This document shows, piece by piece, positions 29,913-32,839 of a stretch of 64,000 nt of DNA. Made by a program: the position numbers and the translations under genes. This DNA is from Methylotenera sp. (GTDB lineage Bacteria > Pseudomonadota > Gammaproteobacteria > Burkholderiales > Methylophilaceae), in the NCBI GenBank assembly GCA_021732365.1, contig JAKFVD010000016.1, positions 117,059 through 181,058 of the forward strand. Reading direction: 5' to 3'. The notes under the pieces were generated by a model that was not told the DNA's origin, ran no database searches, and saw only the letters and a program-made list of their open reading frames with translations. Each line of letters begins with the position of its first letter. The stretch's first letter is position 1.

Positions 29913-30500
29913 CTATAAACTACCTTTAGTAGACGGCATGATGCCTGCCATGCGCGCATCATGCGTGACGGCCATACGTAAAGCACGGCCAAAGGCTTTG
30001 AATATGGTTTCAGCTTGATGGTGCGAATTATGGCCTTTTAAATTATCAATATGCAATGTGACATTCGCGTGATTCACAAAACCCTGAAAAAATTCATGCA
30101 CCAAGTCGACATCAAAGTCGCCAATAGCAGCACGTGTAAATTCGCAGTTAAATTCCAACCCCGGGCGGCCTGATAAATCTAATACCACGCGGCTCAAAGC
30201 CTCGTCCAACGGAACATAGGCATGTCCATAACGATTGATACCTTTTTTGTCGCCCACTGCTTTTGCAAAAGCCTGACCTAAAGTAATACCGATGTCTTCA
30301 ACCGTATGATGTGCGTCAATGTGTAAATCACCTTTGGCTTGAACGTTAATATCCATCATACCGTGACGCGAAATCTGATCGAGCATATGGTCTAAAAAAC
30401 CAAGCCCTGTATTAAGCTGCGAAGTACCATTGCCATCAATATTAATGGAAACAGTGATTTGGGTTTCTAAGGTGTTGCGTGTGACGTCAGCTGTGCGCAT
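29913..30500 (-). CDS. hisB: Imidazoleglycerol-phosphate dehydratase
   Basis: This manganese enzyme dehydrates IGP to imidazole acetol phosphate. The metal-binding histidine motifs [10 protein letters not shown] and GHNSHHQAE are present. I start at ATG 30498-30500 ([15 protein letters not shown]), the family N-terminus, giving 195 residues. A TTG seven codons upstream (30521) is a weaker alternative. It is monofunctional: no histidinol-phosphatase domain is fused. A terminator and the hps gene separate it from hisC. Confidence 0.96.
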
Positions 30501-30593
30501 GGGTAACTTAAATGAAAACAATCAATAATTTAACGGTATTTTAACTCAAACTATCGGCTAGGCGCAAAATTGCCATAAATAAACCCAACAAAT

Positions 30594-30621
30594 AAAAAGC
30601 CGACTATTAAGTCGGCTTTTT
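30594..30621. terminator. Bidirectional intrinsic terminator after hps
   Basis: AAAAAGCCGAC (30594-30604) and GTCGGCTTTTT (30611-30621) pair perfectly around a 6-base loop. A U-run follows in the minus transcript. It lies 34 bases beyond the hps stop and should end the hps mRNA before hisB. Confidence 0.88.
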
Positions 30622-30654
30622 ATCATGCTAAATAGTTTTTAGCTTATGTACTAA

Positions 30655-31533
30655 TTACTGTGCTGCTGCCTCTGGTGCCGCTTCAGCTGCTGGAGCCATT
30701 TCTTCTGCTGGCGCTTCTTCCATCGGAGCTGCTTCCATTGGTGCTTCAGCTGCTGGCATCGCTTCTTCTACTACTGGAGCAGAATCCGCAGGCATTTCGT
30801 CTGTTGAATTGCCGCCTTTAAGTAAGAATAAACCAATTAAAATAGCCGCTGCGATTAAAACATAAGGTAAATATTTACCCATGCCGCCAGCTGATGCTGA
30901 GCTACCGCGTGCTAAACCTGTGATTTCAGCTGCTGAAGCGGCTGGATCTGCTGCGCCATAAATCGCCGCACCAGCAACTACAATATCTGCACCTGCATCA
31001 ACCACTTGACGCACTGTTGCGGCTTTAACACCGCCCGCTACTGAAACTTTAGCACCAGTATTTAAACCAGTCACCATTGTTAAGTCATTAAAAGGTGTTT
31101 GACCAGCCGCTTGTTGATCCAAACCAGTGTGAACGCCAATGATGTGTGCGCCTAATTTAGCTACTTCTAATGTACGTGCTTTTTTGTCAGCAACGTTAAT
31201 CAAATCAACTTGTGCTTGTTTACCGTATTTGTTAGCAACATCAATTACACCTTTGATTGTACCGATATCAGCTGTACCCAAAACTGTACAAATATCTGCA
31301 CCCGCTTTGTAGAATGGCTCAGCTTCGTAGAAGCCAGCATCCATGGTTTTTAAATCAACTAAGATTTTGTTATTTGGGAATTTAGCACGTAATGTTTTCA
31401 ATAATTCAATACCATTGTGCTTAATGCATGGTGTACCGATTTCTAAAATATCTACGTGTGGTGCTACTTTAGTTGCTAATGCAACTGTTGCGTCAAAATC
31501 TAGTGAATCTAATGCCATTTGGGTTTGTGCCAT
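30655..31533 (-). CDS. hps: 3-hexulose-6-phosphate synthase with C-terminal membrane segment and acidic tail
   Basis: HPS condenses formaldehyde with ribulose 5-phosphate, the entry step of the ribulose monophosphate cycle. Residues 1-210 are a complete HPS barrel: DLKTMDAG (60-67, with Asp60, Lys62 and Asp65), VDLINV (109-114), HTGLD and SVAGGV. Most HPS proteins end near residue 210. This one continues with a Ser/Gly linker, a hydrophobic segment (about 221-238) and an acidic Ala/Pro/Glu/Met tail (239-292). The reading frame is open throughout. GGAGGAA precedes the ATG, predicting high expression. No 6-phospho-3-hexuloisomerase gene is adjacent. Membrane tethering is inferred. Confidence 0.93.
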   Translation of the reverse strand: MAQTQMALDSLDFDATVALATKVAPHVDILEIGTPCIKHNGIELLKTLRAKFPNNKILVDLKTMDAGFYEAEPFYKAGADICTVLGTADIGTIKGVIDVANKYGKQAQVDLINVADKKARTLEVAKLGAHIIGVHTGLDQQAAGQTPFNDLTMVTGLNTGAKVSVAGGVKAATVRQVVDAGADIVVAGAAIYGAADPAASAAEITGLARGSSASAGGMGKYLPYVLIAAAILIGLFLLKGGNSTDEMPADSAPVVEEAMPAAEAPMEAAPMEEAPAEEMAPAAEAAPEAAAQ

Positions 31534-31678
31534 GGTGCCTATTCCTCCGAGCTCGCTAATAATTTAATAAAGGGGTCGATTAAAATTATTTGATTAAAAA
31601 GTTAATATTCTGTAGTTATTTGGTTTTAATTCAACGTAATTTTACAAAATACTATTTGCACATTTTGTACATTTCAGC

Positions 31679-31708
31679 ATCATAACCGCAATTGATTATT
31701 TATTTCAA
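31679..31708 (-). promoter_or_regulatory. Candidate sigma-70 promoter of hps
   Basis: TTGAAA (31703-31708), an 18-base spacer and TATGAT (31679-31684) on the minus strand lie about 145 bases upstream of the hps start. The 238-base hisC-hps gap is AT-rich and otherwise empty. Immediately downstream of the -10 a short repeated motif, ATGTACAA then ATGTGCAA, could be a regulator site. Confidence 0.45.
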
Positions 31709-31771: not shown

Positions 31772-32839
31772 TTAATGTGTATTTAGAATCAGTTTAAGTG
31801 CATGGATGAGTGCAATCGATTGCGCATCTGTGCCGATAGTGATACGCAAATATGGCGCAACTCGGCTAGGCTTTTTAAAATGCCTCACGATAATATTGTG
31901 TTCCCTTAATTTTTCCGCCAGTATGCTGCCATCCACTGTGCGATGCTTGGTGAATATAAAATTAGCACCTGATGGCATACTGTCAAAATTAAGCGTTTTT
32001 AAGTCGTTAACTAAGGCTTGTCTTGTTGCTATCACTTTGGCGCAAGTTTGTTCAAAATAATCGCTATCTTGCATGGCGGCAACTGCGCCTGCTTCGGCAA
32101 ATCGGTCAATCGGGTAGGAATTAAAACTATCTTTAACGCGCATTAAAGCTTCAATTAAGTCTTTGTTTCCTAAAGCGTATCCAACACGCAAACCGGCCAA
32201 AGAACGCGCTTTGGATAGCGTGTGCGTTACCAGCAAGTTAGGATACATATTAATTAACTTAACCGCAGATTCAGTGCCAAAATCCACATAAGCCTCATCG
32301 ATTACCACAACCGAATGCGTATTTTGACGCAATAGTTTTTCAATTTCAGCAAGTGCTAACGGAATACCTGTTGGCGCATTGGGATTAGGGAAAATAATGC
32401 CGCCGTTTGGACGTGCATAATCGTGAATATCAATTTTAAACTGTTTATCTAAGGCGATAGTTTCATACTTAATGCCATACAAACCGCAATAAACAGGATA
32501 AAAACTATAGCTAATATCAGGGAATAATAAGGGTTTTTCATGCTTTAACAAGGCCTGAAACACATGCGCCAGCACTTCGTCAGAGCCGTTACCTACAAAT
32601 ACCTGACTCATCTGCAGACCAAAGTTTTCTGCAATTGCCGCTTTTAATTTATCCGAGTTTGGGTCTGGATAAAGTCTTAAGCTATCGGCAGCCTCCAACT
32701 TCAGCGCCTCTATCACCTTGGGACTTGGTCCGTAGGGATTTTCATTGGTATTGAGCTTAACCAAATTACTCAGTTTAGGCTGCTCACCTGGCACGTAAGG
32801 CGTTAATTGATGAACAACATCACTCCAAAATTTACTCAT
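31772..32839 (-). CDS. hisC: Histidinol-phosphate aminotransferase
   Basis: This PLP enzyme transfers the amino group from glutamate to imidazole acetol phosphate. The PLP lysine lies in [18 protein letters not shown], and the phosphate- and substrate-binding blocks [11 protein letters not shown] and FPNPNAPTG are intact; 355 residues. It follows hisD by 12 bases and is followed by the separately promoted hps, so hisGDC probably forms one transcript. Confidence 0.96.

Follow-up and report, generated by a model that had tools for sequence, protein, structure and literature searches.

A histidine-linked 3-hexulose-6-phosphate synthase of Methylophilaceae with a predicted C-terminal membrane anchor

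In a window of 64,000 nucleotides from Methylotenera sp. (GenBank assembly GCA_021732365.1, contig JAKFVD010000016.1, positions 117,059 to 181,058 of the forward strand), we identified a gene, hps2, that encodes a 3-hexulose-6-phosphate synthase (HPS) with a C-terminal anchor. Members of the family Methylophilaceae grow on methanol or methylamine. We put the probability at roughly two in three that HPS2 is an active isozyme of HPS attached to the inner membrane, where it would fix entering formaldehyde while an unanchored copy serves the bulk RuMP cycle. Every his-linked HPS that we examined has a membrane-type anchor at its C-terminus, which suggests that the enzyme is stationed at the membrane through which formaldehyde enters.

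The hps2 gene (30655..31533, minus strand) is a complete open reading frame of 292 amino acids, and all its parts lie on the same strand. The HPS barrel comprises residues 1–210 (30904..31533), as delimited by profile match, alignment, AlphaFold2 and Foldseek. It is followed by a Gly/Ser/Ala linker of residues 211–221 (30871..30903), read from the translation and AlphaFold2, and by a transmembrane (TM) helix of residues 222–239 (30817..30870), predicted from hydrophobicity, pN/pS and AlphaFold2. The acidic Ala/Pro/Glu/Met tail, residues 240–292 (30658..30816), is predicted to be disordered and is probably periplasmic. This arrangement of a complete barrel continuing in frame into linker, hydrophobic helix and acidic tail had been read from the DNA in the original prediction, and is borne out by the open reading frame, the TIGR03128 profile and the AlphaFold2 model. 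The gene is flanked upstream by hisC (31772..32839, minus strand) and downstream by hisB (29913..30521, minus strand), both named from their sequences.

TIGR03128 (3-hexulose-6-phosphate synthase) matches residues 5–205 of HPS2 with 249 bits against a curated cut-off of 200. Residues D9, E31, D60, K62, D65 and H135 are invariant across 65 aligned sequences; from what is known of KGPDC, we take them to be the HPS/KGPDC active-site residues. With these residues conserved, the barrel is probably catalytically intact and HPS2 is expected to be active. The nearest solved relatives, both by sequence and by fold, are the stand-alone HPS structures 3AJX and 3F4W, which share the barrel across HPS2 residues 4–205 (Foldseek TM-score by target 0.88–0.89). 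Their chains, of 207 and 211 residues, stop at the barrel, whereas HPS2 has an additional linker and anchor. HPS–PHI fusions (NF041755; 9LJ9; Methylococcales) likewise consist of an HPS barrel with a C-terminal extension. In the fusions this extension is an enzyme domain, PHI; in HPS2 it is an anchor without homology to PHI. We therefore rejected the idea that the tail is a remnant of a PHI (SIS) fusion. The RuMP_HxlAB model scores 294 against a cut-off of 500, with only its HPS half matched (6–214 of 391). Separately, one methanotroph genome with an intact HPS–PHI fusion, G285, also contains two HPS-like matches spread over several frames (L237 and L239, at G285:C1:1363480 and 1370137), which are frame errors or decayed duplicates.

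HPS2 contains a single hydrophobic helix, near its C-terminus, with basic residues before it and acidic residues after it. The best 19-residue window is KYLPYVLIAAAILIGLFLL, with a mean Kyte–Doolittle value of 2.1, and the tail beyond it has 13 acidic residues and 1 basic residue. In the AlphaFold2 model, a weak linker (213–217) leads from the barrel into a helix at residues 222–239 with a pLDDT of about 82, and residues 241–290 form a disordered tail (pLDDT under 50). Both the frame and the helix are conserved across 66 distinct TM-type HPS proteins, so the extension reflects neither a frameshift nor chance. The original prediction had raised two possibilities that would undermine the tail, its absence from all close relatives and a frameshift. 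The former is contradicted by the 66 TM-type proteins, and the latter, together with an assembly error, is rejected because the frame is kept in all complete relatives examined. The TM segments of these proteins have a median Kyte–Doolittle average of 2.3, and their residues are variable (pN/pS 0.45) yet hydrophobic throughout. On a Hessa-type scale used without position weighting, the best 19-residue window of the TM segment sums to −1.8 to 3.3, and the best segment of the barrel to 4.0 to 8.2.

Across the TM-type proteins, the stretch leading into the helix has a median of 2 basic residues and 0 acidic ones, and the sequence that follows it has medians of 11 acidic and 2.5 basic residues. 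The placement of the barrel inside and the tail outside, originally proposed from the charges of this one protein, is supported by this pattern and by a lipoprotein of exported type with a similar tail. Since the barrel has no signal peptide, its co-substrate is cytoplasmic and the single helix is C-terminal, the tail would lie outside; we regard its periplasmic location as moderately supported. The small lipoprotein in question (L055/L338; G000:C1:166052-166273; sequences beginning MTRSALLAALLALALTACGEKPAEEAPAAEAP or MTRSALLAALLALALTACGEKPAEEAPAAEAPMEAP) is present in most Methylophilaceae genomes searched, and would be expected from its lipobox to be exported. Its tail, an Ala/Pro/Glu repeat, resembles that of the hps2 gene in the same genome. 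At the DNA level the two align in several genomes, with 84% identity across 57 nt in the genome of the window and 70% across 209 nt in genome G019, where the alignment extends into the signal peptide and TM regions. While low-complexity sequence can mislead, this likeness supports an exported HPS2 tail, and the TM segment with its tail may, subject to the same caution, derive from such a lipoprotein gene.

The tail also bears on whether HPS2 is attached to the membrane for assembly rather than for capture, as a scaffold or by docking on a membrane complex, for example through contact of the tail with methanol dehydrogenase or in RuMP/H4MPT assembly. Such a function would fit the length and acidity of the tail in the 66 TM-type proteins, which exceed what a plain anchor requires. 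However, the tail is of low complexity and varies from 29 to 111 residues after the helix, and a second, tail-less form of the anchor implies that tail contact is not the shared function. We consider assembly an unlikely main purpose, and favour capture at the membrane.

This second kind of anchor, unrelated to the TM type, is an 11-residue C-terminal amphipathic helix, GLFGWLKKLFS-COOH and its variants. It is a short and conserved helix that stands behind a Gly/Ser linker and has no acidic tail. Most variants have a hydrophobic moment of 0.60–0.68, and shuffles of the same residues attain the moment in 2–5% of cases, which taken alone is modest evidence of amphipathicity. AlphaFold2 places a helix at residues 217–225 of this form with low confidence. 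Like the membrane-targeting amphipathic helices of the bacterial proteins FtsA and MinD, it is short and terminal, with a basic polar face and a bulky hydrophobic face; unlike them, it belongs to a metabolic enzyme with a TIM barrel, and sister genera have a TM helix in its stead. A 26-residue query from the amphipathic tail matched nothing but HPS in the 8 genomes searched. Encapsulation peptides may likewise be short amphipathic C-terminal helices on flexible linkers, and a hydrophobic C-terminus that is exposed can act as a degron. The C-terminal segments could accordingly be peptides recognised by proteins, either for docking or encapsulation or as a degradation tag by which the amount of HPS2 is controlled. 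The conserved terminal helix behind its linker would fit this explanation, which nevertheless leaves unexplained why the helix is replaced by one of TM length with basic residues before and acidic residues after it; we judge it improbable, and anchoring remains our preferred reading.

We then compared HPS genes from sampled Methylophilaceae genomes and from named genomes, sorting them by C-terminus and by neighbours, with hisC and hisB as the context queries for scoring his neighbours. Of 144 distinct proteins, 104 have a detected his neighbour, and every one of these is anchored (66 TM and 38 amphipathic, one of the latter also having tal on the fetched piece); all 36 with phi or tal but no his neighbour are unanchored and end at the barrel. 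Four without a detected neighbour have the amphipathic form, in one case as FCCWLKKLFS. In a larger set counted by genome record, which has genomes in common with the first and is not independent of it, the his-linked copies comprise 108 TM and 53 amphipathic forms, the 80 phi/tal-linked copies are unanchored, and the same four neighbour-less proteins are amphipathic. The comparison covers part of the sampled genomes; the further copies listed in them have open frames of the expected lengths. The TM type occurs in genera g1, g10, g20 and part of g7, with named records from Methylotenera and Methylophilus, including Methylophilus methylotrophus DSM 46235, and the amphipathic type occurs in most other Methylophilaceae genera. 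The original prediction had treated the extension as peculiar to a single protein. HPS2 is instead a second, family-wide isozyme, for which most genera use the other anchor without an acidic tail.

The window copy, between hisC and hisB, follows this rule. A tail-less copy in the same genome, which the original prediction had proposed to look for, was found as an unanchored HPS of 210 residues between phi and tal (L003). The premise that HPS enzymes end near residue 210 holds for this paralogue and, among the HPSs sampled from methanotrophs and Methylophaga-like bacteria, for those that are not fused; it fails for the his-linked HPSs of Methylophilaceae. Two hps loci have been described in this family (PMC4109929): the histidine cluster contains one, and the other lies with HPI and transaldolase in the H4MPT gene cluster; the passages of that paper on the two copies do not mention anchors or localisation. 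The two loci are thus already known, and the anchors are new relative to the open-access literature searched, in which we found no description of HPS anchors.

Attachment of HPS2 to the membrane is strongly supported by these comparisons: conservation of the helix goes together with a family-wide link between anchor and locus, and a non-homologous amphipathic helix stands at the same place in other genera. A stronger argument than the hydrophobic moment is that two unrelated membrane-type segments share both position and locus. An alternative is that the extension is an artefact, or neutral read-through of a redundant second copy, for which the unanchored HPS in the genome would speak. Against this, the frame is open in all complete his-linked copies examined, the association with the locus is strict, and the amphipathic tail is under purifying selection (pN/pS 0.14 versus 0.11 for the barrel). 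We regard this explanation as refuted by the locus-wide open frames and the selection on the amphipathic tail, with next to no probability left to it.

In barrel trees, the second of which was built from a reduced set of 98 rows, his-linked and phi/tal-linked copies are intermixed, but the anchors do sort by locus. Starred branches force at least 6 changes of anchor state, and the anchor follows the his locus in 6/6 independent pairs. Genome G021 (L051, G021:C4:1753000-1765500) carries tandem hps2 genes in its his cluster, one with an amphipathic and one with a TM anchor, whose first 621 nt are identical and which are unrelated from codon 208 onward, possibly a snapshot of anchor exchange. Genera g6, g12 and g19 (L207-L211) have three HPS copies per genome, two with a divergent barrel of about 65% identity to that of the window HPS2. 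The his-linked copy of g6 has such a barrel and still ends in an amphipathic helix; no his neighbour was detected beside the anchored copy of g12 and g19. At third codon positions, only 6 of 41 comparisons, from g3, g21 and one each of g15 and g1, place the two copies of a genome nearer to one another than to the copies at the same locus in other genera. The copies in g2, g3, g17 and most of g21 share 89–95% DNA identity. Gene conversion of barrels everywhere was rejected as a general explanation, since as a full account it is unsupported for most genera. We lean towards a history in which the anchor was swapped between non-homologous types, and in which some lineages also exchanged the barrel with that of the unanchored copy. 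HPS2 would then be a dedicated inner-membrane isozyme that places the first step of assimilation in two places, with location, not catalysis, selected at the his-linked gene.

Around hps2, a candidate promoter-like site, TTGAAA-18-TATGAT, lies upstream (31679..31708, minus strand); its GCGGTTATGATG also occurs in Methylophilus and other relatives, and such sites show no excess over shuffled sequence in a promoter scan of the region. Directly downstream of the −10 lies a dyad-like element, TGTACAAAATGTGCA (31657..31671, minus strand), a possible operator that is present as a single copy in the genome; many hps2 loci of Methylotenera and Methylophilus have it upstream of the gene. The gene is followed by a strong hairpin resembling an intrinsic terminator (30591..30624, minus strand), detected in 48/103 relatives. 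Given the promoter-like site, the conserved TGTACAAAATGTGCA and the downstream hairpin, hps2 is probably transcribed on its own, an argument that rests on the conservation of the upstream element.

We propose that the C-terminus holds HPS2 on the inner membrane with its barrel in the cytoplasm, where ribulose 5-phosphate is found. In the TM type, a single helix would cross the membrane and the acidic, disordered tail would reach the periplasm; in the amphipathic type, the 11-residue helix would lie in the inner leaflet. Capture of formaldehyde at the membrane and assembly of the RuMP enzymes there had both been suggested in the original prediction. In our reading, HPS2 may condense with ribulose 5-phosphate the formaldehyde that periplasmic oxidation of methanol or methylamine sends across the membrane, the benefit being capture ahead of the bulk cytoplasm. 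PHI and the remaining steps of the cycle would proceed in the cytoplasm, and the phi/tal-linked unanchored HPS would serve the bulk cycle. Genera g14 and g16, which have small genomes, encode one HPS only, phi/tal-linked and unanchored, and therefore RuMP growth as such needs no anchored copy, which counts against the model. Further points against it are that the sampled methanotroph HPSs are unanchored despite periplasmic methanol oxidation, and that it offers no reason for the placement of hps2 in the his cluster. Anchors are absent from the sampled HPSs of Methylococcales, both the PHI fusions and the unfused proteins, which have C-termini such as RELVDAA, and from those of Methylophaga-like bacteria, which end in RALVDAA. 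Particulate HPS activity was reportedly described in Methylococcus in the 1970s. The sampled sequences led us to reject anchors as a general trait of RuMP bacteria; for the same reason, a membrane HPS looks like a solution of Methylophilaceae and not of RuMP bacteria at large.

How methylotrophs use toxic, periplasm-made formaldehyde as carbon without damage to the cytoplasm is a long-standing question. A membrane-attached HPS would be a concrete answer, easily tested in model strains, as Methylophilus methylotrophus has the TM form. It also suggests a design for synthetic methylotrophy in which GLFGWLKKLFS or the TM segment is added to HPS. For the family itself, a membrane-attached HPS would also account for the two hps genes kept in Methylophilaceae.
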